Shown piece by piece: positions 8,414 through 30,405 of a stretch of DNA of 64,000 nucleotides. Both the position numbers and the translations under genes were made by a program. The notes under the pieces are model-generated. The model made no database searches, had not been told where the DNA came from, and saw nothing but the letters and a program-made list of their open reading frames with translations. Origin of the DNA: Methylorubrum extorquens (GTDB lineage: Bacteria; Pseudomonadota; Alphaproteobacteria; Rhizobiales; Beijerinckiaceae); contig NZ_JALJXF010000001.1 in the NCBI RefSeq assembly GCF_024169925.1, positions 3,416,001 to 3,480,000 on the forward strand. The letters are read 5' to 3'. Numbering within the stretch: position 1 is the first letter of the stretch; each line of letters opens with the position of its first letter.

Positions 8414-8620
8414 TCACGGCCCCCAGGTTCCGGGGAAGGCCACGACGTTGCCGTCTGCCCGGCGGGTAAGGCGGCGTTCCTCGACGAGTTCCATCCCGGT
8501 CTCGACCTCGACGGCGACGGCCCCGAGCAGGCTGTCCATGTCGTCGGGCGGCAGGAGGCGGGACAGGCGCACCAGACCCATGACGACCTCGGCGATGCGG
8601 GCTTCGACGTCCTCAGGCAT
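8414..8620 (-). CDS. Small unknown partner of the FtsH-like protease
   Basis: Sixty-eight residues, starting with MPEDVEARIAEVVMGLVRL, mostly helical and acidic with a basic Thr-Arg-Arg segment near the end. Its ATG overlaps the stop of the FtsH-like gene by eight bases, so the two are translationally coupled and probably act together, for example as adaptor or substrate-recognition subunit. No family is recognised. Confidence 0.65.
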   Translation of the reverse strand: MPEDVEARIAEVVMGLVRLSRLLPPDDMDSLLGAVAVEVETGMELVEERRLTRRADGNVVAFPGTWGP

Positions 8621-10634: not shown

Positions 10635-10679
10635 GGCGGCCTCCGGCACGGGGCCGCCGCGCGCCTCCATGCGCGCCGG

Positions 10680-12327: not shown

Positions 12328-14439
12328 ATGAAGTCACTTCTCTGGTCGCCCCTCTTCCGCTTGCCGGCATTCGTTGCGTTTTTTTTGGCAGGCTACGCCC
12401 TCTCTAATTTGCTGCCGGTTCTCTCCACAAAATCGAACTTGGGCATACTAAAAAAAGTTGTTGGAGAGGTTGGACGAGGCGACTTCAACAACGTCGGACA
12501 CTCGGAATTCGCGTTCGCCCTAGCCTGCGCCATTGTTTCGGCGGCCGTGGCAATCGCTTTCGCCATGCTGTTCACACATGTCATCGCGGTTCGCGTATCA
12601 CTCCGGGCTGCCCGCAGGGATCTAGGCACAACTTCGTCGCCAGCGGCGTTCCTGCAGAACTTCGACCGGATCAACCAGCGCCTACGTGATCATCCGTTGG
12701 TTAGCCATGGCTGGGAAGAGTTCTCTAAGACCTGCATTAGGAAGAACTCTGTCGTCCGAACGGCGAGGCCGAACGCGTTTCTCTCTCCGGCTACGGCACG
12801 CGAACGGCTGCCTGGCCTGAAGCTGATGCCGACCATCCCCGGCTACTTCGTCGGGCTCGGCCTGCTCCTTACCTTCGTAGGCCTCGTGATGGCGTTGTCG
12901 AAGGCCGCGGGCGGGGTCACTGGCTCCCCCGAGAACATGACGCAGTCACTTCGGGAACTGCTCGACGCGGCGACGTTCAAGTTCTCGACATCCATCGCCG
13001 GCCTATTCTCGTCGCTCGCGTTGGCCCTGCTCTTTAAGATCTACTCCATCGCCATCGAGGGAGGCTTCGAACGGCTTTGTCGTGAGGTCGAGCGCCGGAC
13101 CACCCTTCTCACGAACCAGGATGCCTTGGTGGACCTTGCGGATGCCAGCAAGGAGCAACTCCAACAACTCAAGGAGATCAACGACGTCCAGTTCTTCGAC
13201 CGCCTCGGACAAGCGCTTGGTCCCGCCCTGTCCTCGGCCGTTGGTGAAGCCGTGAAGCCGCTCGCGGAAAAACTGGAGGCCACAGTCGGCAAGTTGGAGG
13301 ACACCAGCCGGTCGGGCACGGAGGGGTTGCTGAAGCAGTTCTCCGAGACCCTGCACGGGACTGCGGGCACGGAGCTCAAGGAACTCGCCGTCGTCCTCAG
13401 CCAGACCAAGGACGCCCTCGGTAACGTACGCGGCGACCTGACCGGTTCGGGCCAGGATTTTGCCCGTCGCATGGCCGAGGTCACCGGTACGCTCGGTCGT
13501 CTCATAGAAGGAGCCGGCAACCAGTTTAACGCCAACAACGCCGCGACGCGCGATACCATCGAGGCGGTGCTGGACGCCCTCAGGCAATCCGCAGATGCCA
13601 CAAAGGAGCGCCTGAACCGGGACGTAGCCGACGCCGGCACAGCCGCCTCCGAGGCGGTAAGAGCCGGAATGGCCGGCATGCTTTCGCAGGTCGAGAAGCG
13701 AATGGAGGCTTTCCAGGCTACGATGGCTGGCCTTCAGGACCAAGCGGCACGCGATGCCAGCGACGCTTCGGCCAAAGCCAAGGGTGCGGCGGAAGCCGCG
13801 GCTGCAGCCGCGAGCAAGGCGGCAGCCGACACTGCCGAGGCAATCCGGAATGGGTTCGCCGAGACGGTCGCGCAACTGCGCAGCGACGTCGACCGGCTCT
13901 CGACCGCCCTCCGCGCCTCCGAGCAATCTTTCGAGGCACAAAACCGCGCCAGCCTTGCAACGGTCGAGCAGACGAAGGTCGTCTCGTCTGCGTTCGGCGA
14001 CGTCGCCAGTAGCGTGACAGGCGCCTCTCGCCCGCTACTTCAGGCCTCCGACCGGATCGCGACATCTACGGAAGCCCTGGCGGAAGCGGCGAAGGGAGCC
14101 GCCGAAAGCCTTCGCGTCGGGCAGGAAGCAGCCCGGACGCTGGCCGCGCGCCTTGAGGACGGGAACCGCCAGATCGAGGTCGCTTGGCGGAACTACGAGG
14201 AGCGTTTCGGTGCGGTCGACGAGGCCCTTTCAAGGGCGGTTCAGTTCCTAGCTACCGAGACGGCCAACCAGCAACAGGTGTTGACCGACTTCGTCAGCAA
14301 GATCGACCAGGGCTGCGCCGACGCCGTTCAGCGCCTCCAAGTGACGACCGGGGCCATGGAGCAAAACACCGCCGAAATCAGCGAGGTGTTCGAGGAGTTC
14401 CTCGGCCGCCTGCCTCGCCAAGCCATGGCGAACGCGTAG
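12328..14439 (+). CDS. zorA: ZorA, MotA/ExbB-like inner-membrane channel of Zorya
   Basis: ZorA forms a proton-driven membrane complex with ZorB that senses phage entry and activates the cytosolic effectors. This 703-residue protein has membrane segments near residues 11-29, 63-91, 164-186 and 212-240. The last two carry the MotA/TolQ/ExbB signature (IPGYFVGLGLLLTFVGLVMAL and TFKFSTSIAGLFSSLALALLF). From ~260 to the end it is a long alanine-rich coiled coil, the intracellular tail typical of ZorA and longer in type I systems. zorB follows after nine bases. The start at 12328 lacks a strong ribosome-binding site but the first membrane segment begins at once. Gene order and partners make the call firm. 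Confidence 0.93.
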   Translation: MKSLLWSPLFRLPAFVAFFLAGYALSNLLPVLSTKSNLGILKKVVGEVGRGDFNNVGHSEFAFALACAIVSAAVAIAFAMLFTHVIAVRVSLRAARRDLGTTSSPAAFLQNFDRINQRLRDHPLVSHGWEEFSKTCIRKNSVVRTARPNAFLSPATARERLPGLKLMPTIPGYFVGLGLLLTFVGLVMALSKAAGGVTGSPENMTQSLRELLDAATFKFSTSIAGLFSSLALALLFKIYSIAIEGGFERLCREVERRTTLLTNQDALVDLADASKEQLQQLKEINDVQFFDRLGQALGPALSSAVGEAVKPLAEKLEATVGKLEDTSRSGTEGLLKQFSETLHGTAGTELKELAVVLSQTKDALGNVRGDLTGSGQDFARRMAEVTGTLGRLIEGAGNQFNANNAATRDTIEAVLDALRQSADATKERLNRDVADAGTAASEAVRAGMAGMLSQVEKRMEAFQATMAGLQDQAARDASDASAKAKGAAEAAAAAASKAAADTAEAIRNGFAETVAQLRSDVDRLSTALRASEQSFEAQNRASLATVEQTKVVSSAFGDVASSVTGASRPLLQASDRIATSTEALAEAAKGAAESLRVGQEAARTLAARLEDGNRQIEVAWRNYEERFGAVDEALSRAVQFLATETANQQQVLTDFVSKIDQGCADAVQRLQVTTGAMEQNTAEISEVFEEFLGRLPRQAMANA

Positions 14440-14448
14440 GCCCCAACG

Positions 14449-15369
14449 ATGCTGACCGCGACCGACGAGCCAGCCGAAGAGAGCGAGAACTACTTCGTGT
14501 CCATGACGGACATGATGGTCGGCATGCTCTTCATTTTCATCATCATGCTCATGGTGTTCGCCCTGAATTTTAAAGTGGGCGACGACGATTCCAAGCGCAT
14601 CAAGGACTGCCTCACGCAACTGCTGATGCGGAATGCGCAATTGAGCGCCGACATCAACACCAACGTGAACCGCATCCAGGATGAGGTCAGGGGTCAGGTC
14701 GAGGCGTTGGAACTCGCCGCCGATCAGCGCAGGCGCTTGCTCGCCGACATCAACCGGCGCCTTGTCGAACAGGACATCAAAGCCGAGATCGATGAGCGCA
14801 ATGGCGTCCTCCGCCTCACTGAGGCGGCGGTCCGCTTCGAACCGGGGCGCTCGGACTTGGACCAGTCCGCCCGCTACACGATAGCCCGGGTCGGACGCAT
14901 CCTCGCCGCCGTCGTGGCCGACAACGCTGCATGCAAGGGCACGGCGGTCGGCAGGGACTGCAACGCGACGCGTGGGGCAGGGCTGGAGACCATCTTCATC
15001 GAAGGCCACACCGACACCACCGGCGTGCCCGACGCCGCAGAGCGCGACCGCCGAAACTGGTTGCTCTCGACGGAGCGCGCCACCTCCACCTATCGCGAGA
15101 TCCTGGCGGGCTCGCCCGAGTTGCGCGAGTTCCGCAACCGGCGCGGAGAGCAGATCGTGTCGGTCTCCGGCTATTCCTCCACAAGGCCCATCGCCGCGGG
15201 GGACGACAGGACGGTGTGGGCGCGCAACAGGCGTATCGACCTGCGGTTCGTGATGGACGCGGACACGACCATCAACCTGCGGGACATCATCGCCTTGAAC
15301 GAGCAGGTGAAGGCGCAGATCGCGCGCTTGGCCGCAATAAGCGACGAGAGCGTCCAGGCATGCAAATGA
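14449..15369 (+). CDS. zorB: ZorB, MotB/OmpA-like stator partner of ZorA
   Basis: The 306-residue protein has one N-terminal membrane segment (about 22-41, MLFIFIIMLMVFAL) preceded by MTDMM. D21 is the expected ion-carrying aspartate of MotB-type stators. A periplasmic helical linker follows, then an OmpA-like peptidoglycan-binding domain (about 150-290) with FIEGHTDTTG and the arginine-rich end NRRIDLRFV. Together with ZorA it should form the membrane-anchored motor. Its stop overlaps the zorC start region, so translation is coupled. Confidence 0.94.
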   Translation: MLTATDEPAEESENYFVSMTDMMVGMLFIFIIMLMVFALNFKVGDDDSKRIKDCLTQLLMRNAQLSADINTNVNRIQDEVRGQVEALELAADQRRRLLADINRRLVEQDIKAEIDERNGVLRLTEAAVRFEPGRSDLDQSARYTIARVGRILAAVVADNAACKGTAVGRDCNATRGAGLETIFIEGHTDTTGVPDAAERDRRNWLLSTERATSTYREILAGSPELREFRNRRGEQIVSVSGYSSTRPIAAGDDRTVWARNRRIDLRFVMDADTTINLRDIIALNEQVKAQIARLAAISDESVQACK

Positions 15370-16760
15370 AGGCCGCGTTGGCCGCCATCCCCGGCCGCGT
15401 CATTAACCTCCCAGCGGTCCCAGCCGTATCACGGGTGAGCGCGGCCGCGGCGCTCATAGTCGACCCCGGCGTCACCCTGGAACAGCGTAAGCCCGACGAC
15501 CTTGACCAGATCGCCGGTCGCCTCATCGACGCGTTTGAGACCGGCCGGATACCGGAACGTAGAGACCTCAACCAAGCCGCGTGGTGCATCTGGGAGGGCA
15601 GGCGGCCGCTTGCCGACATGCCCGTCGTGCTAGGAAGGTTGCTCGACCACGTTAGGAGGGGTGGCAAGCGGTCGGCGTTCCGTCGTCTGGCCGCAGTCTA
15701 TCTTTCGAAGTTCGAGCCCCTGGAGACATCCGAACGGGCCGGCGTGATCCGACAAGTGGCCGACACCTTGAGAGGCATCGCACCGGACTTCACGGGCACC
15801 TTCTCGGATGCCGCCCGCACCCTTCATCTCTACGAACCCGACGAGGCGCCCCGTATCATCGCCGGCCGCGCCCTCGCGTCAAGGACGTCACCCAGCAAGG
15901 CCCTTGAGGACGCGGGTATCCGTAACCTGGCGGCCGAGGGCGGCCTTGCCGAGGCGGCATTCCTAGCCGGCCTTCGTCAACTCGCCTCGGACATGGGCCT
16001 GAGCCATCAGGACCGGCTGGCACGCATCTCGGAATGGGGCCTGCGACGCAACGGGACGGTTCTCTACGAGCAGCATCGAGGGGCTCTCGTCGATGCGCTT
16101 GTGCTTCCTTACGGCGACACGCTGCCCCCAAGGGACATAACCGACCTGTACCTCAGGTTCTTGGTGTCCAAGTTCGGCGATCCCCGGTTGCGACAGGCGT
16201 ACTGGATGCCGATGCGCTCGGTCGACACGGTCAGGCGCTGGCTGACGTCTCTGTCGCTTCGCCAATTCCTCGACGTCGTCGACCGGGGTGCCAAAGCCAG
16301 CCAATGGCAATACCGGCGCGCCTTCTGGGAGGCGGTTCATCGCCGCGAGCTCATTTCGGACGCTTGGGTCGTTTTCGACGATTTGGGAGACCTGACGGCA
16401 CGGAAGCTATTCAAGGTCGAGGCTCCCTACGCCCGTTTCGCAGCCGGTGCCGCCAATCAGGTCGAACAGGGTCAAGCGGTCCTGTTGCTGCGCGTCGGCG
16501 CCGGCATCATCGCGGAATGGAGCCAGAACGGCCGGTGCAACGTATGGCATTCGACTTCGGACCCGACTGCACCGAAACTGAGCCGTTCCAGGTACAATAC
16601 GAACGAGGTGAGGCTGTCGCCCGGGCAGCAAGCGGAATTCACGCGGTCAGGGATCAGGCACGATGGCTCCGATGGGTACCGTTGGCAGTCGAAAGTGGCC
16701 GACGAGATCTTCGCCTTGACCAACGTCCGGATCATGGAATCGGAATATAGGCTCCCGTGA
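15360..16760 (+). CDS. zorC: ZorC, EH-signature protein of type I Zorya
   Basis: Start at ATG 15360 or 15366 (MQM), both overlapping the end of zorB; ~467 residues. The frame is open further upstream, but that lies within zorB. It is a cytosolic, arginine- and leucine-rich helical protein. The stretch SQWQYRRAFWEAV followed by the W-containing WVVFDDLG (around residue 313) fits the 'EH_signature' domain that defines ZorC. In type I Zorya, ZorC and ZorD act together in the cytosol after the ZorAB motor is triggered; ZorC binds DNA. The C-terminal part (from ~400) is beta-rich. GTGATGG joins it to zorD. Confidence 0.9.
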   Translation: MQMKAALAAIPGRVINLPAVPAVSRVSAAAALIVDPGVTLEQRKPDDLDQIAGRLIDAFETGRIPERRDLNQAAWCIWEGRRPLADMPVVLGRLLDHVRRGGKRSAFRRLAAVYLSKFEPLETSERAGVIRQVADTLRGIAPDFTGTFSDAARTLHLYEPDEAPRIIAGRALASRTSPSKALEDAGIRNLAAEGGLAEAAFLAGLRQLASDMGLSHQDRLARISEWGLRRNGTVLYEQHRGALVDALVLPYGDTLPPRDITDLYLRFLVSKFGDPRLRQAYWMPMRSVDTVRRWLTSLSLRQFLDVVDRGAKASQWQYRRAFWEAVHRRELISDAWVVFDDLGDLTARKLFKVEAPYARFAAGAANQVEQGQAVLLLRVGAGIIAEWSQNGRCNVWHSTSDPTAPKLSRSRYNTNEVRLSPGQQAEFTRSGIRHDGSDGYRWQSKVADEIFALTNVRIMESEYRLP

Positions 16761-19759
16761 TGGCGACGCGCTTCCGGTCACGCTGCGGCCTCGGAGCCGT
16801 TGAAGTCACCCTCGTTCATACCGGGTTATTCGGCGGCGCCAAGACGTTGCCGAGGAACGAGTGGGAAGGGCTAACCGGGGCGAAAGCCGTCGCGGCGCGC
16901 CACCTCCTACCCCTCGTCGCCGAAGGCGCAGCGCATTGGGAAGGCGACGCGTTGCTCGTCCGAAATGACGCGGCAGCGACCTTCAACGGCATGCTCGCCT
17001 CCCTCATCGGCCTACCTGAGTTGGCGCCACTTCTCGTGGACATCTCCTTCCACGGCACCATAGGCGAGAGCGGAAGCCGGATCGAGACCGCCTGGATGGA
17101 GGCCTCGCACACCCCCATCATGCCGAGGCGTACAGGCCTGCAGGTCCAGTGGGGTGAACGCGTCAGGCGCCTGGGCGGCCCCCTCTATTTCCTGACGGAG
17201 GCCATCGACGGCTTCAATGCCGCGGCGCCTGGCGACCTCGACGCGAAGGTCACGCGTTGGGGCGCGGTCACCGCGGCGCTCGCCGCGGTGAAGGGGGAGG
17301 AAATCAGCGCGGACGCCTACACGAAGAGTCTGACCGTCTTCCAGGCAGGGTCTTTCGCCCTGGACGTGAGGCACGCCCCAGGCACCATCGAGTTCTCGCC
17401 CATCCTCATGAGCCGTACGGTGGCGCGCTCGCTGGAGGATAACGCGCCCGTCTCCGAGGACGGGGGCGACGACTTCGACGAACTGGTGGACGACGAGGCC
17501 GCCACCCTCCTGGTGAGCGAGGACCGCAAGGCGTTCCTGCGCGCATTCGACAATGCCGCGGACGGCGTCCGCCGGTCCTATGCGCTCAGGCGGAACACGT
17601 ACCTCCTGATCGACCCGGACCTGCAGCGGGCCCTGGACGTGGTGCGCGAGATGCGTGCCGCTCCCGAGGAGCGGAAGCGCGCCTTCCTGAGGAACCCGCG
17701 CACGGCCATCGCGACCAAGCTCGGCCTCGATACGGAGGACGCGTCGCTCTCCGCGATCTTCGTCGAGACGCAGCAATACTCGGATCGGGTTATTGGGCTC
17801 GGGGTATGGCAGCGACCCGAGCTGACCTGGCTCTCGAAGGCGGGCACCGAATGGCTGCCGGAGCGCTTCCCCGTCGAGATCGACGGCAAGCCGGACGAGA
17901 TCACCCGCGAGGAGGCCGGCAAGCTAGGTCGAGACACGCGCGCGGCGGAGGATGCGGGTGAGGACGAGGTCCCCTTCAGGGAAAGCCACGTCCCGCTGCC
18001 GACCGCCCGCACTATCCTCGAAGGCGTCGGGATCGCCATCCGGGAACGCATGCCGGTGGATGCCGAGACCGGCCAGGTCGACGAGACGCCCGAGGATAGG
18101 GCCGACCGGCCGCGGCAAGGCGCCACCGAGCCGGTCGTTGTCCTGATCGAGACCAATTTCGAGGGGGTGACCTACGAGGTCCGGAGGCGACCCCGCACGG
18201 CCGTTATCCCCCTGGAGCCGCCAGCCGGGCGAATGGGCGCCACCCGCTTCAAGCCGCACCAGCAAGAGGGCTTCGATTGGCTCGTCGGGTCCTGGGTGGC
18301 CGGCTGGCCGGGAGTGCTGCTGGCGGACGACATGGGGCTCGGCAAGAGTTTCCAGGGCCTCGCTTTCCTGGCATGGCTCAAGGCGAACCGAGAGGCGGCC
18401 CGCGACCGCGGCGTGACCGGGGTCAGCAAGGGCCCTACCTTGATCGTCGCGCCGACCGCGCTCCTCCAGAATTGGGTTCAGGAGGCCCGGCGGCACCTCG
18501 CGCCCGATGCTCTCGGCAAGAACCTCGCTGACGTCTTCGGAGCCGGCATCAAGAAGTTCAGGAACCCGGACGAGGAGGCCAGGAAGCAGGGTGAGACGCT
18601 CGACTGGCGCAAGATCGCGGACCACGACTGGGTGCTCACCACCTACGAGACGCTGGCCGACAACCACGTCTCATTCGCGCGGATCAACTTCTCCGCCGTC
18701 CTCTTCGACGAGATGCAGAAGGTCAAGGACCCCGGTACGCTGAACACCTTGGCGGCCAAGGCGGTCAACGCGGACTTCATCCTTGGATTGACGGGCACCC
18801 CCATCGAAAACCGGGTCGAGGACCTGTGGTGCATCGTCGATAGGGTCTTCCCTGGATTCCTGCGGGACCTGCGCTCATTCTCGCAGGATCATCGGGACGG
18901 CGACCCCGAACGCTACCGTGCCCTCTCGGACCGCATGAGGAAGCCTCTCGACGGGGCACCAGCGGTCATGCTGCGGCGGATGAAGGAGGACGTGCTCGAA
19001 GGCTTGCCCGAGAAGCGCGTCCAGACCTACCGGACCGAGATGCCCACAGCACAGGCCGAGGCTTACGGGGACATCGTCGCGCGTGCCCTGGATGGAGGGC
19101 CAAGGGCCCGGGGCGCGATGTTGGAGATTATCCAGCATCTTCGCGCGGTCTCGCTCTACCCGGGCGACCCGGGTGAGGTTGACCTCGCTAGCGAGCGGGA
19201 GTGCTGGGATTGGATTGAGAGGTCGGCGCGGTTGGGCAAGACCTTCGAAGTTCTGCGCGACCTCCAACGCAGGGGTGAGAAGGGGCTGGTTTTCGTCGAA
19301 CAGCGCGCGATGCAGAAGCTCCTCGCTGGAGCGATGGCCACGGTGTTCGGGATGGACAGGCCCCTAATCATCAATGGCTCCGTCGCTGGTAGCCAGCGCC
19401 AGAATATGGTTGATGATTTCCAGGCGCGACGCCGGGGCTTCGACGCCATGATCCTCTCTCCGAAGGCGGCTGGGGTTGGACTGACCATCACGGCGGCGAA
19501 CCACGTGATCCACCTTAGCCGCTGGTGGAACCCGGCCGTTGAGGACCAGTGCAACGACCGCGTCTATCGGATCGGGCAAGAGAAGGCCGTGACCGTCCAT
19601 ATCCCCATCGCGGTGCATCCCACGCTGGGGGACAGAACCTTCGACGTGACGCTGCACAAGCTTCTCGAACGTAAGCGGGAAACGTCGAGGAACCTGCTCA
19701 TGCCGCCGGTCTCCGACGCCGATCTCACCGAGGTCTTCAATATGAGCATGGCGGCTTAG
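16760..19759 (+). CDS. zorD: ZorD, SNF2-type helicase/nuclease effector of type I Zorya
   Basis: ATG at 16760 overlaps the zorC TGA; a GTG three bases earlier is the alternative start. The 999-residue size fits type I ZorD. The N-terminal ~480 residues are a family-specific region. The SNF2 motor follows: motif I LLADDMGLGKS (~520), Ia LIVAPTALLQNW, II LFDEMQ (~648, DEMQ in place of DEAH), III GLTGTPIENR (~675), V SPKAAGVGLTITAANHVIHL, and VI DRVYRIGQEK (~936). Type I ZorD is reported to degrade phage DNA with an N-terminal nuclease activity; I do not see a standard nuclease motif by eye. No frameshift or missing motif is visible. The next gene starts ten bases after the stop. Confidence 0.94.
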   Translation: MATRFRSRCGLGAVEVTLVHTGLFGGAKTLPRNEWEGLTGAKAVAARHLLPLVAEGAAHWEGDALLVRNDAAATFNGMLASLIGLPELAPLLVDISFHGTIGESGSRIETAWMEASHTPIMPRRTGLQVQWGERVRRLGGPLYFLTEAIDGFNAAAPGDLDAKVTRWGAVTAALAAVKGEEISADAYTKSLTVFQAGSFALDVRHAPGTIEFSPILMSRTVARSLEDNAPVSEDGGDDFDELVDDEAATLLVSEDRKAFLRAFDNAADGVRRSYALRRNTYLLIDPDLQRALDVVREMRAAPEERKRAFLRNPRTAIATKLGLDTEDASLSAIFVETQQYSDRVIGLGVWQRPELTWLSKAGTEWLPERFPVEIDGKPDEITREEAGKLGRDTRAAEDAGEDEVPFRESHVPLPTARTILEGVGIAIRERMPVDAETGQVDETPEDRADRPRQGATEPVVVLIETNFEGVTYEVRRRPRTAVIPLEPPAGRMGATRFKPHQQEGFDWLVGSWVAGWPGVLLADDMGLGKSFQGLAFLAWLKANREAARDRGVTGVSKGPTLIVAPTALLQNWVQEARRHLAPDALGKNLADVFGAGIKKFRNPDEEARKQGETLDWRKIADHDWVLTTYETLADNHVSFARINFSAVLFDEMQKVKDPGTLNTLAAKAVNADFILGLTGTPIENRVEDLWCIVDRVFPGFLRDLRSFSQDHRDGDPERYRALSDRMRKPLDGAPAVMLRRMKEDVLEGLPEKRVQTYRTEMPTAQAEAYGDIVARALDGGPRARGAMLEIIQHLRAVSLYPGDPGEVDLASERECWDWIERSARLGKTFEVLRDLQRRGEKGLVFVEQRAMQKLLAGAMATVFGMDRPLIINGSVAGSQRQNMVDDFQARRRGFDAMILSPKAAGVGLTITAANHVIHLSRWWNPAVEDQCNDRVYRIGQEKAVTVHIPIAVHPTLGDRTFDVTLHKLLERKRETSRNLLMPPVSDADLTEVFNMSMAA

Positions 19760-19769
19760 CGGGGGCGCG

Positions 19770-20624
19770 ATGAGGATCTTCGCGAAGCGGTTCTACGGCT
19801 TCGACCCGGTTTCCCGCCCCGTCGTTGCGTTCGGCAAGGAGGGCAACCGTGACGCCTTAATCACCGCCTCTTCTCCGGGGGACCTCATTGTCTACGTGGG
19901 CACGCAGGGCGAGCCGACGGCTGAAGGCGAGCGTGGCCGCCTGCTCGGAATCGCCGAGTTTGCCCGCGTTGCAGTCGATGCCCGAGACCTGATCGACCCC
20001 GCCACCTTGCGCTCGTTCGACGTGAACCCGGACGGCTCGCTGGCGTGGCCGAAGGGCCTCCCGATCTTGCGGGCATGGCGGTTCAGAGAACCTCGTCTCA
20101 AGCTGCTCGACGTCCTGCGCGAGCAGCTCACCTTCGAGGCGACGGTGCGCGCGGTCAAACTGGACGAGGCCGATGCGCGAGCCGTCCTGGCGCTCCCGCG
20201 GGATGAGGTCGTCGTGCCGACGCATCCCGTTATCGAGCGCCTGACCAAGCTCAATCAAGCCCTGGGACACGGTCGTCCCACCACCGGCCCGGTGCCGGTC
20301 GATTGGGAGGGAACGGTGTCCAGAAGCGTCGGCTCGGAGGCATGGACCTATGCCATGCGTTTCGGCCGACGCAACATCTGGAAGGTCGGGCACGCTCAGG
20401 ACACCGCCGTACGGCAGGCCGAGTTCAACCTGCACGTCCCCCACGAGGAGCTCGGTGAGAGGTGGGAGCTTCGGCTGCGGCAATGCTGGCCGGACTCGGT
20501 GCAGGCGTACGGGATGGAACAGCGCCTCTTTCGCGGCATGGCCGCGTTCCGCACCGAGGGGGAACGTTTGCGTTGCTCTGAGACGCAGATGCAAACAGCC
20601 TGGACGGCTGCCCTCTGTGCTTAG
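19770..20624 (+). CDS. EVE-like plus GIY-YIG-like protein, fifth gene of the Zorya operon
   Basis: Begins ten bases after zorD on the same strand, so it is almost surely co-transcribed. The 284 residues fall in two parts. The N-terminal ~110 residues contain GDLIVYVGTQGEPTAEGERG then RLLGIAEF, which resembles EVE/PUA-type domains that read modified bases. The C-terminal ~100 contain YAMRFGRRNIWKVGHAQD, a later R...FNLHVP and MEQRLF. That is the order of conserved residues (Y, G, K-V-G, R, N, V-P, E) in the T5orf172/GIY-YIG-like nuclease family. A nuclease or sensor that adds modified-DNA recognition to Zorya is possible. It may also be an unrelated single-gene restriction factor of the McrA/EVE type. 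Domain calls are inferences from pattern. Confidence 0.75.
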   Translation: MRIFAKRFYGFDPVSRPVVAFGKEGNRDALITASSPGDLIVYVGTQGEPTAEGERGRLLGIAEFARVAVDARDLIDPATLRSFDVNPDGSLAWPKGLPILRAWRFREPRLKLLDVLREQLTFEATVRAVKLDEADARAVLALPRDEVVVPTHPVIERLTKLNQALGHGRPTTGPVPVDWEGTVSRSVGSEAWTYAMRFGRRNIWKVGHAQDTAVRQAEFNLHVPHEELGERWELRLRQCWPDSVQAYGMEQRLFRGMAAFRTEGERLRCSETQMQTAWTAALCA

Positions 20625-20692: not shown

Positions 20693-22780
20693 TCAACGCT
20701 TCTTCGTCGGCGTCGGGGAAGCAGCGTCTTGAGCGTCGGCAGCCGGCCGGCCTCGCCCGCGGCGGCTCGGGCGAGAGGCGGGGGCGGTAGCAGCCTTTGC
20801 GGCGGCTTTCGCCGTCTTCGCCGCCTCGGTCTTGGCCTTGGATACTCTCTTCACGGCCTCCACAGTCGCCGCGCTCGGCGCGATCCGACGGCCGGGAACT
20901 TTCACAATCAGCACACCCCGCCGGGTCCCGTCACCTAGGAGGTCGCCCACCTCGGTCCGGTAGAGAGTTCTGAAGTGGCCTGAGAGGCCGCCCTTCGTCG
21001 TGAGATCTAGGACGAGCAGGATGCCGATGGGGAGGTTGGTGTTCTGGTAGAGGGCGGTCTGGTCGCCGTAGGAGGCCAGAAGGTTCTCGAACGACGCGTC
21101 TTCCTCCTCGCGCTTCACCTCCGTGATGAACCTCACGCCATCCACCTGATGCACTACGTCGGCACGGCCGGCGGCGACGCCTCGCAACTCGTCGACGGTA
21201 CCGAACTTGGCCGTCCGGATGAACCTCATGAAATCCTGCTGGATCTCCTTCTCCAAGGGATCGGTCTCCCCTTCACTGGTGAAGAGGTAAGCTACGGTCG
21301 GGTCGACCCCCGGGCTCGGGTCCATCCGACTTTCGAGGAAGAGCAGCGTCTTATAGACCACCGCCTGCACGATGATCCTCACGGTCGGGTTGGTGTCGAA
21401 GTAGGGTATGCCCTCGAACGCCGGGAGCACGACCGCCAGCGCCTCCATCAAAGTCGGTGTGAGTGAGCGGACCTCGAACGTGTTGACATTCGAGATGACC
21501 TCCCGGGCGAGGCGCTCCTGTAGTTCGAACGACGGTGAGCCCTGCTCAATGACGGCGGCGACCGTGGGGCCTAAGGTCGCCGCCCCGGGAGGGTCCGGGT
21601 CCGCCCCCTTTCCGAGTGCGGCATCGGTGCGCGTGATGAGGTGAGAGGCTGCGGCCCCGAGCTCGGAGGCGCCGTGGGCTCCGAGCCAGTCCCGCAGCGC
21701 GTAGAGCTGCTCACGGTGTCGAGCGAAGTAATCCTCGATCCGAGGACGCACCAGCCATTCCAGGCCCCCGTCGCTCGACCGCCGGAAGATGGTCCGGTTC
21801 GCAGAGTAGACGGCGAGCAGCTCATTTTCGATGATGCGTGCCGCATCCCACCAGGACGGCTTGTCGAGGCTGGGTCCCAGCGTCGCGAGCCGGATCGCCA
21901 ACGATGCCCAGGCGGACACCTCCGCCGCTTTCGCACCGTTGAGGAAGTCACCGTCCTGATGGGAATAGGCCGAGTAGGCGAATGCCTCTCGGCCGAGTTC
22001 ATGCACCCGGTCAGCCCACCCCCCGACGCGCTCCTCGTAGAAGTCGTCCAGCAGACCTATCGCCAGCGAGAGCACACGCGCGTCTGAACGGGCCTCCCGC
22101 ATGGCCGACGCCGCATCGAACCGAATGCGAGCTTCTCGCAGTCGGTTCAAAGCGTCGAGGCCGCTGGTCGCCTGCAGGGCCAAGCCTACGCGCTCCATGC
22201 CGAGCTCGAACGTCGCCTCGTCCGCGGCATCGGCCACGTCGAGGAGCCCCTCAAGGAACTCGACGGTCGCGTCGTTCGGCGTTTCCGCGTGCAGGAGACC
22301 GGCAATGCGCGCGGCGTGCGCAAGGAAGCTGGCGTCGTCGTCCGGCTCGCAGTTCACGACGAACGCCGACAAGCTGATGGAACGGCGCGAGCTCTGACGC
22401 TTCATGAGGAGCGCGCCACGCAGCGCGGCGGTCCGCACGCTGGCCATGGCCGCGCGGTCTCGGGCTAGCGCGAGCCACCGTTTGAACCACCGACCTTCGA
22501 CCGGCTCCGGTAACGGCGGCCGATCCGCAACGAGGTCCACAAGGGCATTGATGCCAAAATCGTCGGCGAGCCGGTCAACGAGCTCGCCGGAGAACGACTG
22601 CATCGCCGCGTCCTCCAAGTCGGCCTCGTCGAGTACGAGGGAAAAAAACTCCGGTGCGAACTTCGAGCCTGCGACCACCTCAGGAGCGGCCAGGATCGAT
22701 CCCAACCCACCGAATTCCGCAGCCGAAGGCCGCCGCCCCTCGGTCAGCGCCGCGGTCATCCTTTCATCGAGTGCGTCCAC
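20693..22780 (-). CDS. Large protein with C-terminal PD-(D/E)XK nuclease domain
   Basis: Last gene of a leftward three-gene operon. The likely start is GTG at 22780, five bases after the stop of the SMC-like gene; ATG at 22759 is an alternative. The ~695-residue protein has a long helical N-terminal region without recognised domains. Near residue 541 comes GRADVVHQVDG then FITEVKRE. The D541...E554-x-K556 spacing and flanking hydrophobic strands match the PD-(D/E)XK nuclease core. The last ~60 residues are rich in Lys, Ala, Pro and Arg (histone H1-like) and probably bind DNA. Coupled to an SMC ATPase, it is probably the effector nuclease, analogous to LmuA of Lamassu. The functional role is inferred. 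Confidence 0.75.
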   Translation of the reverse strand: MDALDERMTAALTEGRRPSAAEFGGLGSILAAPEVVAGSKFAPEFFSLVLDEADLEDAAMQSFSGELVDRLADDFGINALVDLVADRPPLPEPVEGRWFKRWLALARDRAAMASVRTAALRGALLMKRQSSRRSISLSAFVVNCEPDDDASFLAHAARIAGLLHAETPNDATVEFLEGLLDVADAADEATFELGMERVGLALQATSGLDALNRLREARIRFDAASAMREARSDARVLSLAIGLLDDFYEERVGGWADRVHELGREAFAYSAYSHQDGDFLNGAKAAEVSAWASLAIRLATLGPSLDKPSWWDAARIIENELLAVYSANRTIFRRSSDGGLEWLVRPRIEDYFARHREQLYALRDWLGAHGASELGAAASHLITRTDAALGKGADPDPPGAATLGPTVAAVIEQGSPSFELQERLAREVISNVNTFEVRSLTPTLMEALAVVLPAFEGIPYFDTNPTVRIIVQAVVYKTLLFLESRMDPSPGVDPTVAYLFTSEGETDPLEKEIQQDFMRFIRTAKFGTVDELRGVAAGRADVVHQVDGVRFITEVKREEEDASFENLLASYGDQTALYQNTNLPIGILLVLDLTTKGGLSGHFRTLYRTEVGDLLGDGTRRGVLIVKVPGRRIAPSAATVEAVKRVSKAKTEAAKTAKAAAKAATAPASRPSRRGRGRPAADAQDAASPTPTKKR

Positions 22781-22784
22781 AGGC

Positions 22785-24740
22785 TCACCAGAGGTAATCG
22801 TCCCCTTCAGCGTACAGCACGCGGTCGCGAGGCACATGGGCGCGGATGGTCTCGTTGTTGATGGATGCCACGAAGACCTGCAGGTGCGGGATCTCCTTGG
22901 CGATTTCCGCGAGCCCCGCGATCAGGTTCGCATAATCGCGTCCGACCATCTCGTTCGCCCCAGGCGAATCGATGAGGAGGAGACCAGGATGTCGCCCGAG
23001 GCCACGCCTCTCAGCCACCTTGATGATGGCCAGGGTGGTCGCGACCTTCAGCCGGACCCGCTCGCCGTCGGTCTGCTTAGAGAAAGACGTCTTACCTCCG
23101 TCCTTGACCAGGAAGAGGTTGGTGTTCCCCTTGAGGTCGGCGCTTTCCAGGCTCTCCACGCCGAAGCGCACCGCATACTCCCTGATGAGATCGGAAACCT
23201 CGGCCAGGAGTTCGTCCTGCAACGGCTTGTAGGCATCCTTAGTGACCTGCTCGGCGAACTTGAGCACGGCTTGGTCGTCGACCGGCGCCGGCACGGCGAC
23301 TGCCTCCGCATCCAGTTCCTCTTTCTGGGCTTCCTTCCGGACGATCTCTAACTGTAATGCCGCGGCGGGTGATGGCTGGGCCAGCGCCGACTCGATGCGA
23401 CCGCAATCCCTCTCGGCATCCGCCACTTCGGCACGGGCATCCTTGAGGGCCTGACCGACGGACGCGTGACGCGCCTTCTGTGCCTTGGCCTCCACCTCCG
23501 CGTCGGCGACCGCCTTCTTCAAAGCGGCTTCCTGCGCTGCGGGGTCGCCCTCCGGCTCCTCGTTCGAACGGCACACGACGCAGGTGTGGCTCTCGCTGGT
23601 TGCGACACGCCGGTCCTCGTCGAACACCTCGTCGCAGCGAGGGCAACAAACCGGATCGAGCGACCTGAACACCCTCTTAGCGGCACGCCCGTCCTTGAAG
23701 TCCACTAAGTCACGCCGGGCGGCCGCATATGCCTCCTTCGCCGCTTCGACGTCCTCGTCGACTTTGGTAAGCATGCGCAAAGCGAGCCGCTCACGCGTCT
23801 GCGCATCCGCGAACGCGCGGTTCGCCGCCCGCAGGGCGGCCCGCTGGTCCTCAGGCTTCGGCAGCGCATCGAGCTTCTTGCGAAGGTCCCTGATTTCCGC
23901 ATCAAGTTCGGCGATGCGCCCCAGGCGCCGGTCGCGCGTCCGCTCAAGCGCAACGGACGCCTCGCGCGTATCGGTCTTGATGCGATTTTGCGCCGCGGCC
24001 ACGTCGCTTGCGGCGTTCGTCCAAGGCACGCCGAGGTACATCTGCATCATGCGGGTGCCGAGCCCCGCGTAGGTTCCGGTGCCGAAGAGAACGGACGGGC
24101 TGGGCTCGATCACCATGGCCCCGGACAACCACACCCAGTCGTGAGGTTGGTCGATGCCTTTGCCCTGCCGCTCGATGTGGGTCACCATCATCTGAAGGCC
24201 GAGTTGATCCATGAAGAAGGCCGACATCACGGCCTCGAAGTCGTCCTCGGTCGAGAAGGAGGCCTGGGCCTGCCGGCTTTTGTCGTCCACGCGCCACAGC
24301 GTGCCGGCCGACGCAACGGCATCTGCGATGTCGACCTCGTAGAGGTGCCCCTCCAGCGTGAACCGCATAGTCACAGTGTGGAACCAGTCCGCCATCTCGC
24401 TTGGCACCCCGTCACTACGGCGCCCGTTGAGGCACCAACGGAGCATCGAGAGCAGCGTCGACTTACCCCTGAAATTCCTGTCGCTGAGGATGGCCGTGAG
24501 ACCGGGCCCGAGATCGTCCCAGGTGAAGGAGATCGGCCCGGGCGCCCTCTCCCCCTTCCTCTCACCGGTGAACGCGAGCGAAAGGATGCAGAGGCGCTTG
24601 GGCACCGCGATTGACGGCTTATAGGCCACACCATGACGGGCGAGAACGGCCCGAACGTCCTCTACGCCCCGACCGGATTTCGATGCAATCTGCGCAATCA
24701 GCGAGGACGCATCGGTCCGTTGCAGTTCGCTCGCCATCAT
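22785..24740 (-). CDS. SMC/Rad50-like ATPase with a two-CxxC apical zinc site
   Basis: The 651-residue protein has a degenerate Walker A, SDRNFRGKST (86-95), and two coiled-coil arms (about 245-350 and 395-470). The hinge carries CCPRC (C366, C369) and CVVC (C387, C390). A C-terminal ABC half follows with SKQTDGERVRLK as signature-like loop and GLLLIDSPG as Walker B. SMC-like proteins of this size pair with a nuclease and a small middle component in Lamassu and ABC-three-component defense systems. The usual Rad50 hook has one CxxC per subunit; two CxxC here suggest an internal zinc ribbon at the apex. The ATG overlaps the stop of the upstream gene (ATGA). The ATPase call is firm; the system type is inferred. 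Confidence 0.87.
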   Translation of the reverse strand: MMASELQRTDASSLIAQIASKSGRGVEDVRAVLARHGVAYKPSIAVPKRLCILSLAFTGERKGERAPGPISFTWDDLGPGLTAILSDRNFRGKSTLLSMLRWCLNGRRSDGVPSEMADWFHTVTMRFTLEGHLYEVDIADAVASAGTLWRVDDKSRQAQASFSTEDDFEAVMSAFFMDQLGLQMMVTHIERQGKGIDQPHDWVWLSGAMVIEPSPSVLFGTGTYAGLGTRMMQMYLGVPWTNAASDVAAAQNRIKTDTREASVALERTRDRRLGRIAELDAEIRDLRKKLDALPKPEDQRAALRAANRAFADAQTRERLALRMLTKVDEDVEAAKEAYAAARRDLVDFKDGRAAKRVFRSLDPVCCPRCDEVFDEDRRVATSESHTCVVCRSNEEPEGDPAAQEAALKKAVADAEVEAKAQKARHASVGQALKDARAEVADAERDCGRIESALAQPSPAAALQLEIVRKEAQKEELDAEAVAVPAPVDDQAVLKFAEQVTKDAYKPLQDELLAEVSDLIREYAVRFGVESLESADLKGNTNLFLVKDGGKTSFSKQTDGERVRLKVATTLAIIKVAERRGLGRHPGLLLIDSPGANEMVGRDYANLIAGLAEIAKEIPHLQVFVASINNETIRAHVPRDRVLYAEGDDYLW

Positions 24741-25366
24741 GCAGCCTTCAGCTTTTCGAGACGGAGCCGGACGCGCTCGGCAGTCGTCGGGATGATCTGA
24801 CCCGTAGCCGCATCGTGGTATTCCTTCTGCTGATGCTGCCGAGCCTTTAGGTCGTAGCCCCCGCGTCCGCTCGCCACGCGCAGGACGAGATCGACGCGCT
24901 GGTCGTACCAGCCCATCTCCGGCACCCCGGCCACGATGCGGTCCAGCAAGTTGACGGCTCGGTCTCCGACAAGGAAGTCGTGTTCGTCGTTGCCCTTCTG
25001 CTTCTGGAGGGAGCGAAGCATCACCAACCCCCTGCTTTTGAGGATGCTGAGAACGGTGTCGAGGGGTTCGTAGGCGCCGAAATAGCGACGCAGCATGGGT
25101 ACGCGACGAAGGTCAGGCTCTTCCTCCGCGAAGATACCGTCGGCGATGTCGAGGTATTCCTGGTCGCGCGTGAGTTCGTAGAGCGTGAGGAGTTCATCCG
25201 CCAAGTAGTCCGGGTAGCGGACCCAGAAGTCGAGCGCCTGAACTTTGGTCTCACCCCTGAACACCCGGTGATACCCGTCGACGGGCTCGCCTCCATAGGG
25301 CGTGCTGCCCTTCACCAAGATGAAGAGGATGCGCAGGGCATTCCGGTGGTAATCGACCTTGGCCAT
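24737..25366 (-). CDS. Middle component of the SMC-nuclease operon
   Basis: First gene of the operon, 209 residues, soluble. It begins MAKVDYHRNALRILFILVKG and contains KVQALDFWVRYPDYLADELL, which is the kind of 'K...LDF..RYP.YLA..L' pattern seen in middle components of ABC-three-component systems. The C-terminal half (RSLQKQKGNDEHDFLVGDRA) looks like a winged-helix domain. Such proteins probably bridge the SMC dimer to the effector, like LmuC of Lamassu or kleisin partners of MukB-type complexes. Stop and next start overlap by four bases. Identity as middle component rests on operon position and a remembered motif, so moderate confidence. Confidence 0.7.
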   Translation of the reverse strand: MAKVDYHRNALRILFILVKGSTPYGGEPVDGYHRVFRGETKVQALDFWVRYPDYLADELLTLYELTRDQEYLDIADGIFAEEEPDLRRVPMLRRYFGAYEPLDTVLSILKSRGLVMLRSLQKQKGNDEHDFLVGDRAVNLLDRIVAGVPEMGWYDQRVDLVLRVASGRGGYDLKARQHQQKEYHDAATGQIIPTTAERVRLRLEKLKAA

Positions 25367-25472: not shown

Positions 25473-26963
25473 CTAGGAGTTAGCCCGAACGGCGTCGGGT
25501 GAGGCGGCTGCCGTCACATAGCCGGCCTTGAAATCCTCGTGAGATGCCAAGGCCTCGGGCCGGTAGGCGCCCCTGCCGGCGCACTGCGTCACCTCGGCCA
25601 TCTCGAACCGCTCGTAAACGGTCGGGTGAACCGGGGCGCCGGGCGGAACCGTCCGTGGCTTCACAGGCCAACCAAACCGGCCCAGCCGGGGCACCAGCCA
25701 GCGGGGGAAGATGCCGGCAATGGTGTCGCGCATGCTGGCGACCTCGCAGTGTTGCATGCCGTCCGCGGCCGGGTGCAGGCGCAACCGCCCGTTGCCAGGC
25801 TCGCCCGGCACCATGCCATCGACCAGCAGCGGGTTCGGAATGGTCGTCGCCTCCTCGACCATCCAGCCCAGGGCGATGTCGGATAGCCGGCTCTCGGCCT
25901 CGGGGTAGCTGCCTCCGATGTCGGAGTGGTTCCCCGCGAACCACATCTGGACGAGCGGCTCCGGCTCGTCGCCGACCTTCTCACGGACCGCACCCTTCTT
26001 GCCCCACCCGACCGGCGGGAAATCGGCGCGGGTCTCGTCGATGGCGAGCGCGTGCCGAGCGTAGCCGACGTGACCGGAGAGGAGGCGGTCGTAGTTGCCT
26101 GAGCGCCACTGCGCGAGGTGCCGATGGGTCTTCCCGTCGACCGGGCTCTTCTCGATGGTCTTCACCGCCGTCGGTAGCCAGCGCAACAGGATGAAGGCGC
26201 CCATCAGAGCCAGGATGGAAACGAACGGTCCCCAGAAGCCCGTATCGAACGAGAGGTCGAGCAGCGCCGCCGGCACCGCCGCTACGAGGGCGGCGAGCAG
26301 CGCTAAGCCTGCGCCGATGCCCCAGCGCAGCGGACCGGTCGAACCGAGCGAGGCCACGGTGTCGAAGACGCCTACGAAGTGTGGGGCTACGTTCGAGCGG
26401 AGCTCGTCGCCCGAGCCGTACCTATGTCGGAAGCGCCTGGCGAGCTCGAAGCGCTCCTGCTCGTACTGCGCCCGAGGCGAGCCGGCTCCGTACTCGTAGA
26501 CCTGCAGAACCGCCTCCTTGGCGATGGCGCGCGTTGCTCGGCGGAACCGGGGCAAGTAGCCATCCGGCGCCGTGGTCGGCACCCCACAAAGGAACAGCAC
26601 GTTGGCTACGCACCGAGCCGTGTAGGCGCCCCGGCTAAAGCCCACGAGATAGATCCGGTCGCCCGGCTCGTAGTGGTTGACGATGAACTCGTAGCAGTCG
26701 GTGATGTTTTTTGTGATGCCCAAGCCGGTCACAGAGGACAGCAGCTTCTGGAGCCGACGGTACGCACCGAGGAAGCCAGTGGCCGACCCGTCGGTGCCCA
26801 GCCCGGGGTCGTAGAAAGCGACTTGGTCGCGCGGGTCGATGCCGCTGTCCGGGCCGACCCGACAGACGCGGTAAAGCTTGTACACGTTGCTGAGCCGCTG
26901 CTCCTCGCGCAGCCCACCTTCCTGGCCGGTGCCATCGGAGAAGACCACGATGTTCTTCGGCAT
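25473..26963 (-). CDS. DUF2235 alpha/beta-hydrolase with membrane segments
   Basis: Start at ATG 26963 (MPKNIVVFSDGTGQEG); the frame runs eight codons further without support. The DUF2235 hallmarks are clear: N-terminal IVVFSDGTG with a following LSNVYKLYR, nucleophile elbow VGFSRGAYTAR (G-x-S-x-G), a WFAGNHSDIGGSY block (D and H of the hydrolase site), and a late helical lid. Two hydrophobic segments sit at about 220-265 (GLALLAALVAAVPAALL and FVSILALMGAFILL), so it is anchored in the membrane. The family includes type VI secretion phospholipase effectors (Tle1) and standalone proteins of unknown role. No VgrG or immunity gene is next to it. Within a defense island it might be a membrane-damaging abortive effector, which is speculation. 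Confidence 0.87.
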   Translation of the reverse strand: MPKNIVVFSDGTGQEGGLREEQRLSNVYKLYRVCRVGPDSGIDPRDQVAFYDPGLGTDGSATGFLGAYRRLQKLLSSVTGLGITKNITDCYEFIVNHYEPGDRIYLVGFSRGAYTARCVANVLFLCGVPTTAPDGYLPRFRRATRAIAKEAVLQVYEYGAGSPRAQYEQERFELARRFRHRYGSGDELRSNVAPHFVGVFDTVASLGSTGPLRWGIGAGLALLAALVAAVPAALLDLSFDTGFWGPFVSILALMGAFILLRWLPTAVKTIEKSPVDGKTHRHLAQWRSGNYDRLLSGHVGYARHALAIDETRADFPPVGWGKKGAVREKVGDEPEPLVQMWFAGNHSDIGGSYPEAESRLSDIALGWMVEEATTIPNPLLVDGMVPGEPGNGRLRLHPAADGMQHCEVASMRDTIAGIFPRWLVPRLGRFGWPVKPRTVPPGAPVHPTVYERFEMAEVTQCAGRGAYRPEALASHEDFKAGYVTAAASPDAVRANS

Positions 26964-27106
26964 GGCCCCCCCGGAACGCCTGGGCACGACTTCCCGTCGG
27001 CCAAGATACCCAACGTATTGGTTCGTCCTTTGTTCCGGCCACGCTCGTAACCGGTCGCGCGGAACTTTCCGCTTCTCCTTAGTAGACCGCGTGGTCTACC
27101 TTTCCT

Positions 27107-29294: not shown

Positions 29295-29577
29295 GAATGG
29301 GCGTGCGGAAACCGGTGAACTGCCCGAACGCCGTCTGCTACGCCTCATCCGATCTGATCCTTAGCAATCTGTGGCCAACACTATGCAGCCTTTGGGCATT
29401 GAACCAACGATGGCCGCTCCCGCTCGAAATGATATCTCAGGTTGCGGAGCGATATCGGGCATGGAACCGACAGGACCGCTCCGAGCAGGCTATCATAGCA
29501 AGCGCATTTCAACGGTCGGCACGATATACAGGCGACATGGCCAAGGGCCGTCCACGCAGAATCATACGAGGTTGGAA

Positions 29578-30405
29578 ATGCCGACGGCGCGGCGCATCCC
29601 CGACGTCTTTCAGGATGATGAAAGGCTAGCAGGCCGCCTGAAGGTTGCTCTCGCCGAAGCGCTATCGCGCCGATTTGGCGAAAGCGACTGGAAGAAGTTT
29701 GCGGCCCTCCATGGCCTGACTGAGCGCCTGGAGCGCCATCCTCGCTTCTATCGGAGCTTGAGTTGGGGCGACGACGATCACGAAGGACATGTCGTCGATT
29801 TGGTAAACAACCTCTTTTCGGACGACGAGGATGCGTTCGCTGCCCTGTTCGATAACAAGGATGTGCGGTTCTGGCTCGCAACGCATGGGTACCGAGACAT
29901 CGTCGAGTTATGGGAAGGTACTGGCGATCCACTGTTGGCTGCCCTTGCACACGGAATGTCCGAGGTCAGCGCATCCCGCGATATTGTGGACCTTGATGCC
30001 TACGCGGCACGCATCGAGAAGTCCCTTCCGTCCGATCCCCACGGTGCGCTCGGCGCAACCAAGGACATGCTCGAAGCGACAATGCGTTCGATCCTGCGCA
30101 AGCGAGGCGAGACCGATTTCGAGAAACTCGATTTTCCTGGGCTAACCGGGCGCTGCTTCACCCTGCTCGGAATGGCGCCGAACACGCCTCCGGCAACGCC
30201 GAGCGAAAAGTACCTGCGGAAGATGGCGTCCAGCGCCCGGGCGATGATCGAGAGCGCCAATGAGCTTCGGAATCTCGCGGGGACCGGCCATGGACGGGTC
30301 GTCGGTGAGGAGGTTGCGGTATCGCCTGACGACGCGAGCTTGGTCGGTTCGTCCGGCTTGGTTTTGGCGGCGTGGCTCCTTCGCCGGCACCAGACTGCTC
30401 CTTGA
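29578..30405 (+). CDS. Abi_C domain (HEPN-type) abortive-infection protein
   Basis: Start at ATG 29578 with GAGG ten bases upstream; the frame is open from 29371 but that leader is not protein-like. The 275-residue protein has an N-terminal helical region with repeated acidic stretches. The C-terminal Abi_C domain has LGATKDMLEATMRSILRKRG and ELRNLAGTGHGR. The latter holds the R231-N...H238 pattern (Rx4-6H) typical of HEPN ribonucleases and the 'RN..GtGHG' block of Abi_C. It would be a toxic RNase triggered by infection. It is the rightmost cargo gene, about 130 bases from the transposon end. Confidence 0.82.
   Translation: MPTARRIPDVFQDDERLAGRLKVALAEALSRRFGESDWKKFAALHGLTERLERHPRFYRSLSWGDDDHEGHVVDLVNNLFSDDEDAFAALFDNKDVRFWLATHGYRDIVELWEGTGDPLLAALAHGMSEVSASRDIVDLDAYAARIEKSLPSDPHGALGATKDMLEATMRSILRKRGETDFEKLDFPGLTGRCFTLLGMAPNTPPATPSEKYLRKMASSARAMIESANELRNLAGTGHGRVVGEEVAVSPDDASLVGSSGLVLAAWLLRRHQTAP

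Follow-up and report, generated by a model that had tools for sequence, protein, structure and literature searches.

A rearranged, probably defensive Lamassu-superfamily operon in Methylorubrum extorquens and a candidate recoding signal in the effector genes of its relatives

Three adjoining genes in a 64,000-nucleotide stretch of the Methylorubrum extorquens genome (hereafter the window) encode a small subunit, an SMC/Rad50-type ATPase and a nuclease-bearing effector. We read them as a defence operon that belongs to a distinct Lamassu-superfamily lineage with a rearranged layout, in which an LmuBC clamp would carry a docked LmuA nuclease (probability roughly 0.7). The gene set, the homology of LmuB to Lamassu, the conserved nuclease residues and the modular linkage of scaffold and nuclease were observed directly. 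The name of the system is known, as PADLOC lists the operon; its layout is not described in the literature covered, and the effector gene of many members carries a strong candidate recoding signal.

The operon is tightly packed on the minus strand at positions 20693-25366, in the order LmuC-LmuB-LmuA (C-B-A). The first gene encodes an LmuC-like small subunit of 209 aa (24737..25366), the second an LmuB-like SMC/Rad50-type ATPase of 651 aa (22785..24740), and the third an LmuA-like effector of 695 aa when read from a GTG codon (20693..22780). The LmuC and LmuB genes overlap by 4 nt, and 4 bases separate the TGA of LmuB from the GTG of LmuA. This GTG, at 22780, is the start position of several LmuA homologues; an alternative ATG at 22837 gives a protein of 714 aa and makes LmuA overlap LmuB, and LmuA residues are numbered here in the 714-aa form. 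The three-gene operon of the preliminary description was thus confirmed with exact coordinates. Upstream on the same strand, 106 bp away, lies a gene for a Tle1-like hydrolase, the downstream neighbour is a convergent gene, and Zorya adjoins the operon. The host genome (5.26 Mb, 4 contigs) contains a single copy of LmuB, and the closest named relatives belong to Methylobacterium. That the set goes beyond chance is indicated by 79 loci from several phyla with the same kind of gene set.

Each protein matched a PADLOC model (2023 set) over nearly its full length: LmuC matched PDLC03872 (E 2.1e-79), LmuB matched PDLC03864 (E 6.5e-192) and LmuA matched PDLC03853 (E 7.7e-165), the last model also matching LmuA of the relatives. 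The PADLOC-DB entries for these models are profiles only, without description. Because the models name all three proteins, the operon is a PADLOC-listed, Pfam-dark lineage of the Lamassu superfamily and not an unrecorded system; since PADLOC lists the system, the operon is ordinary by name. The preliminary description had proposed a variant system with an unfamiliar effector layout. The layout part stood, as gene and domain order differ from those of the comparators described below; the unassigned status did not, since very high PADLOC-DB scores already assign the proteins to LmuA, LmuB and LmuC, which goes part of the way to placing them in a described subtype. The C-B-A order with a C-terminal nuclease was not found described in those parts of the Lamassu literature that were covered.

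Of the three proteins, LmuB alone can be shown to be a homologue of solved Lamassu. A fold search, which had been suggested as a check, returned Lamassu LmuB chains (9hqu, 9uxh, 9nyg) as the best PDB matches of the predicted fold, and hhalign aligned LmuB to the comparator LmuB over 531 columns (probability 99.6, E 5.9e-25). Ahead of the ATPase core the model and the alignment place an N-terminal extension of ~47 residues (24600..24740, minus strand) with two predicted helices (residues 11-22 and 26-35); it is present in 27 aligned LmuBs, and the listed PDB alignments begin at residue 46-51. The Walker A motif is degenerate, as had been noted: SDRNFRGKS (24459..24485, minus strand), followed by Thr, has Asp for the first Gly, a position that varies across the lineage's aligned LmuBs. 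The remainder, N-x-x-G-K-[S/T], is kept in the 27 aligned LmuBs except L028, whose sequence contains ambiguous residues. The two CxxC motifs reported at the apex were likewise borne out and form a zinc-binding-like CPRC...CVVC motif (C366, C369, C387 and C390; 23571..23645, minus strand) in conserved columns of alignments A2 and A5; three of the four cysteines are invariant in the 27 aligned LmuBs, and C366 is absent in one row, L028. In the Walker B motif, LLLIDS (22965..22982, minus strand), Ser replaces the catalytic Glu; D591 and S592 are invariant, with D-S in 27/27 aligned LmuBs, and the replacement would be expected to leave LmuB poor at ATP hydrolysis.

The small subunit had been called a middle component, a misleading label: its gene stands first in the operon, and 0/24 LmuCs of the lineage matched the Pfam ABC-3C middle-component (MC) families, the window LmuC matching no Pfam family. 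Profile comparison with the comparator LmuC gave a probability of only 0.2-0.4%. As a control, the comparator MC2 and MC5 alignments (4 and 2 rows) also could not be aligned with each other (0.2%). Because these accepted types fail with each other, the failed LmuC match says little, and LmuC may be a remote homolog of the MC families, which is compatible with the profile results.

LmuA has, as described previously, a long N-terminal region (residues 20-505; 21323..22780, minus strand), which we term the scaffold; it consists of alpha-helical repeats and is all-helical in the predicted model. The C-terminal domain (20858..21295, minus strand) is supported as a predicted PD-(D/E)XK nuclease with E529, E550, GRxD560, E573xK575, Q593 and Y597, in agreement with the earlier assignment. 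Most LmuA residues invariant in 27/27 sequences fall within this domain (E529, E550, G557, R558, D560, E573, K575, Q593 and Y597), the motif residues occupy 529-597 of 714, and they are kept in 28/28 members of alignment A6, five split-type nuclease domains included. Pfam matches of the domain were weak (Mrr_cat in 3/28, PDDEXK_9 in 2/28), and 0/27 LmuAs of the lineage matched a C-terminal ABC-3C CTD in Pfam. Comparison of the domain with solved structures returned no match, and profile comparison of the window LmuA with the comparator LmuA gave 0.1-0.2%. The H1-like tail of the preliminary description exists as a basic stretch rich in Lys, Arg, Ala and Pro (20693..20875, minus strand; P654 to the end, 61 residues, 25% K+R), but the family as a whole does not conserve it: at the same place the remaining 26 sequences of alignment A4 have 5-41 residues. 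Two observations count against the Lamassu reading given above: neither LmuA nor LmuC has a detectable relation to its comparator counterpart, a weak test in view of the MC2-MC5 control, and the nuclease domain, with no solved-structure match, sits in an LmuA model of only moderate quality (pLDDT 72.6, pTM 0.49).

For comparison, twelve loci of other Lamassu systems were read (order unclear in L171, effector uncertain in L180); their models PDLC03863 and PDLC00257 were positive in 10/99 and 4/99 of the same related genomes that were surveyed for the window's lineage. Where gene order could be resolved it was LmuA-LmuC-LmuB or LmuA-LmuB. Pfam was searched with ten comparator proteins, namely 4 LmuCs (of 7 aligned) and 6 effectors. 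All 4 LmuCs matched MC2 or MC5, and the effectors matched Cap4 (2) or Mrr_cat (2, one below cut-off) on the N-terminal side and CTD6 or CTD9 (3) at the C-terminus, with no match in one. The comparator LmuBs kept the first Walker A Gly in at least 90%, had one conserved CxxC and showed the Walker B consensus LDSPL. Like Lamassu type II/DdmABC (LmuACB; PDB 9hqu, 9hqx, 9uxh, 9nyg), the window's operon has a small subunit, a nuclease effector and an SMC/Rad50-like LmuB that is comparable in size, bears a CPxC apex and has its Walker B Glu changed. It differs in gene order (C-B-A against A-C-B), in a nuclease that lies C-terminally behind a helical repeat instead of near the N-terminus with a CTD in some, in an LmuC without MC-family match, and in an LmuB with two conserved CxxC motifs, an N-terminal extension and a first Walker A Gly that is not kept.

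Two other clamp systems offer more distant likenesses. Wadjet, the JetABCD set, also combines an SMC-like ATPase and a nuclease in a single operon, whereas LmuB scores with Lamassu models and, at E 0.1, the PADLOC matches of the three proteins included no Jet model. Mre11-Rad50/SbcCD resembles the operon in the LmuB fold and in its clamp-plus-nuclease logic; its nuclease is a metallophosphatase and a working Rad50 retains the Walker B Glu, in contrast to the PD-(D/E)XK motifs and the lost Glu found here.

The lineage set comprises the best 79 of 89 loci found when the LmuB alignment was used to scan genome contigs, and includes records from Pseudomonadota, Actinomycetota, Planctomycetota, Acidobacteria-type and Myxococcota. 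The window and the relatives read share the C-B-A order: LmuC lies upstream in 75/79 loci (absent in L007, L018, L066 and L076, loci with a nearby contig cut or an incomplete LmuB), and the LmuA scaffold lies downstream in 79/79, as a single ORF with the nuclease in 67. Among the 12 loci lacking such an ORF, six have split genes with both parts intact (L034, L035, L036, L039, L055, L057), L038 is split with its nuclease frame shortened near a contig end, L043 is broken, and in L066 the nuclease was not found. The other three (L075, L077, L078) carry a different C-terminal domain instead of the nuclease and form one supported group in the tree, beside nuclease-bearing relatives. A further 20 regions from an actinobacterial family gave 16 fused genes, plus L141 (frames split +1), L140 (scaffold alone), L149 (cut at a contig end) and L154 (L077 again); the fused L135 and L136 appear to repeat L071 and L073. 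Across these loci the C-terminal part thus behaves as the effector that can be exchanged, and the N-terminal part is its constant partner. This reverses the order given in section 9 of a review (PMC10586767), in which the enzymatic domain comes first, a likely docking domain last, and the small subunit stands mid-operon.

Presence of the operon is patchy. At E 1e-20, 13 of the 59 genomes of the window's genus were positive (its own included) and 0/40 outside the genus, together 13/99 related genomes; in the 13 same-genus regions the nuclease is fused in 13/13 and LmuC is present in 12/13, the remaining one ending at a contig end. In the actinobacterial family 24/300 genomes were positive, and LmuB relatives occur on 36 plasmid records, of which 4 are predicted to be conjugative. 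This patchiness, the plasmid carriage, the neighbouring Zorya and the defence naming in PADLOC make it very improbable that the operon encodes a complex for DNA repair or chromosome maintenance, as the relation of LmuB to Rad50 and SMC might otherwise suggest.

In characterised Lamassu systems LmuBC is proposed to clamp abnormal DNA (PMC10586767, PMC12904381 and PMC12409362, as far as the available text of these articles goes). By analogy with those systems, LmuB with LmuC would form a Rad50-like clamp that binds ATP and is probably hydrolysis-poor, and that would sense aberrant phage and plasmid DNA such as ends or hairpins. The LmuA nuclease would be held on LmuBC by its N-terminal helical scaffold until sensing frees or clusters LmuA, whereupon DNA would be cut and the infected cell probably killed or arrested; sensing, docking, release and the abortive outcome are all carried over from the characterised systems. 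It is alternatively conceivable, if unlikely, that the operon restricts invaders directly and without abortion, LmuB recognizing linear or unusual invader DNA and a tethered LmuA cutting it in place while sparing the chromosome. Such restriction would suit the Rad50-like LmuB, has precedent in the logic of Mre11-Rad50 and Wadjet, could exploit the scaffold fusion as a tether and fits the occurrence of the operon on predicted conjugative plasmids. Yet the nearest solved relatives are Lamassu, for which LmuA liberation and homotetramer formation are reported in preprints cited in the portion of PMC12409362 available to us, and the Walker B Glu is lost in LmuB. For DdmABC, infection at high MOI is reported to bring loss of viability and degradation of the chromosome.

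The second main result concerns the effector gene of the relatives. We consider it likely that LmuA is now, or was ancestrally, made both as scaffold alone and as scaffold-nuclease, by programmed -1 frameshifting at a heptamer on the domain border, mostly G_GGA_AAA. Of the 8 split loci, 7 have the nuclease in the -1 frame relative to the scaffold and an in-phase slippery heptamer within the overlap; in the eighth, L141, the relation is +1 and the overlap contains no heptamer, and we take this locus to be an ordinary frameshift. Where both parts are intact (six loci), no stop interrupts the overlap of the two frames, and this overlap contains exactly one in-phase X_XXY_YYZ heptamer: G_GGA_AAA in L034, L035, L039 and L055, G_GGA_AAG in L036 and A_AAA_AAG in L057. 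In 5/6 of them the zero-frame stop codon ends 10-13 nt after the start of the heptamer. The remaining 2,514 scaffold codons of the split genes (L141 included) contain no in-phase heptamer, and since LmuB ORFs, used as background, contain 47 per 54,197 codons, the expectation for the 280 shared codons is ~0.24. The -1 frame peptides past the site are alike in L034 (GKTLEESAQ), L035 (GKTLEKAAQ) and L036 (GKALEEAAR), and precede any ATG or GTG in that frame. L038, which was recognised as split last, after the remaining counts, and is not among the 31 rows with a site described below, shows the -1 relation as well; its overlap of 16 codons contains C_CCA_AAA and A_AAA_AAA. By eye, an inverted repeat directly follows the L038 heptamers.

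The same heptamer marks the domain junction of fused genes. Among 96 fused LmuA ORFs (L001, L081 and the split loci left out, the duplicate L136 kept among both ORFs and sites), G_GGA_AAA occurs in phase 25 times, 25/25 in the domain-junction zone (15,592 codons), with 0 in the scaffold zone (34,181 codons) and 0 in the nuclease zone (16,502). A -1 slip at these sites would lead to a stop after 15-29 codons, and after 16 codons in 16/25. The dipeptide Gly-Lys is encoded as G_GGA_AAA in 27/34 cases in the junction against 3/318 elsewhere (LmuB and scaffold-bearing ORFs; Fisher p 1e-30, a value that ignores kinship). This count covers 94 fused ORFs, the second piece of L141 included. Two of the three cases elsewhere are the L034 and L035 sites themselves; L034-L036 enter the count as having no site, as their scaffold profile ends early, and their sites are known from the overlap analysis. 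Because Gly-Lys is coded in this way almost solely at the junction, an amino-acid effect is unlikely.

On a quick LmuB tree, in which long branches were flagged, 31 rows have the site and 67 do not, and this distribution requires 4 changes against a shuffled mean of 26.6. Six loci met twice (L001, L081, L135, L136, L107, L154) were dropped from the Gly-Lys count and from this tree, identical copies L047 and L049 in one record were kept as two rows, and 10/108 rows were unscored (L032, L038, L043, L052, L066, L075, L077, L078, L140, L149). At 70% LmuB identity the rows with the site form 22 clusters, at 50% they form 12, and no cluster is mixed; those rows with names belong to the Alpha- and Betaproteobacteria, Actinomycetes and Thermoleophilia. 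Counting against frameshifting, the site is present in L066, where the nuclease was not found, and at the junction it is absent in the scaffold-only L140 and in L075, L077 and L078. SD-like 5-mers from our own motif set lie within 20 nt upstream in 8/31 sites, compared with 1.5 +/- 1.1 at random positions.

The heptamer might instead reflect a constrained linker peptide, or be part of an internal-start signal for a nuclease-only product; we regard this as improbable. Consistent with it, the Gly-Lys dipeptide is located in the linker, a GTG or ATG lies just upstream in several Streptomyces genes, downstream RNA structure over the 31 sites is unremarkable and not clearly stronger than in the rest of the gene (mean z -0.69; 6/31 below -1.5), and the site is absent in 67/98 scored relatives. 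It is opposed by the junction-specific coding of Gly-Lys and by a downstream frame that is exactly -1 in nearly all split loci.

The window is among the 67 scored rows without the site, and the strict heptamer is absent from its whole LmuA gene. At LmuA residues 409-410 (21608..21614, minus strand) it has C_GGA_AAG where many relatives have G_GGA_AAA, and this is probably a decayed slippery site. The window's branch would thus have lost the strict site and make fused LmuA only.

We know of no defence effector with such recoding, and programmed frameshifting in a defence effector was not encountered among the literature matches listed, a small part of a larger body. The closest parallel is the dnaX tau/gamma cassette, which like the relatives' LmuA has a -1 slippery heptamer at a domain border and long and short products; LmuA differs in using mostly G_GGA_AAA, in being a defence effector and in having products that are only predicted. 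According to the part of PMC5009743 that was available, A_AAA_AAG is the dnaX site, and dnaX occurs in both polarities, the reversed type having a stop directly after the site. In LmuA, too, polarity may depend on the branch, frameshifting adding the nuclease in split genes and removing it in fused genes. The ratio of the two forms would set the number of nuclease-bearing subunits per complex and so tune toxicity: scaffold-only LmuA would dilute the nuclease-bearing subunits, and we infer that many LmuA must come together before active nuclease can assemble.

Taken as a Lamassu lineage, these operons suggest that a reordered operon, with a C-terminal nuclease on a different scaffold, can be served by the same sensor, and they test what share of the docking and release mechanism is indispensable. 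Should the frameshift reading hold, bacterial immunity would meter a self-toxic effector by translational recoding, and a single synonymous change would then give a direct test of nuclease-subunit dosage per complex.

The Lamassu-like operon adjoins a complete type I Zorya system (window 12328-19759, + strand) in convergent orientation. This system comprises ZorA (12328-14439, +), ZorB (14449-15369, +), ZorC (14931-16760, +) and ZorD (16757-19759, +), and a gene of 284 aa (19770-20624) lies between it and the operon. Upstream of the operon is a gene for a Tle1-like phospholipase or hydrolase (25473-26987, -), beyond which an AbiJ-domain protein is encoded (29371-30405, +). Another gene of the window (8613-10670, -) encodes an AAA ATPase with similarity (E 6e-21) to IetA, which belongs to the IetAS defence system. 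Close to these defence genes, three minus-strand genes suggest the presence of a Tn7-like element (1857-7166): the first is TniQ-like (1857-3905), the second resembles genes for DNA transposition proteins (3925-4911) and the third codes for a TnsB-like transposase (4908-7166).

Within the operon, the N-terminal extension (24600-24740, -) of LmuB, the SMC/Rad50-like ATPase, may resemble the first helices of HU-type proteins. For LmuA, an in-phase -1 slippery heptamer (X_XXY_YYZ, mostly G_GGA_AAA) was found at the junction between the helical scaffold and the nuclease in seven loci of relatives (L034, L035, L036, L038, L039, L055 and L057), and G_GGA_AAA is present, also in phase and at this junction, in 25 of the relatives' fused LmuA ORFs. 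In L038 an inverted repeat was recognized by eye immediately 3′ of the heptamers. From sequence, programmed frameshifting is predicted for the relatives whose LmuA carries the junction heptamer.

The LmuA scaffold was also found fused to a different C-terminal domain that replaces the nuclease, in L075 (9961-11988), L077 (9836-11773) and L078 (9950-11773). In the latter two loci a further gene directly follows the variant LmuA; the one scanned, that of L077, is Kdo/protein-kinase-like.

Divergent types of the operon are spread across the genus of the window (L095-L106), and one genome of this genus (G030) contains two types. On a Roseovarius conjugative plasmid, the LmuB copy (L183, 4501-6410) may be broken, since the annotation divides the matching region between two hypothetical CDS. 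Two or three gene families recur together flanking the operon in six loci (L008, L014, L015, L016, L020 and L023), on its upstream side in five of them and on its downstream side in the sixth, and possibly constitute a mobile-element cassette.
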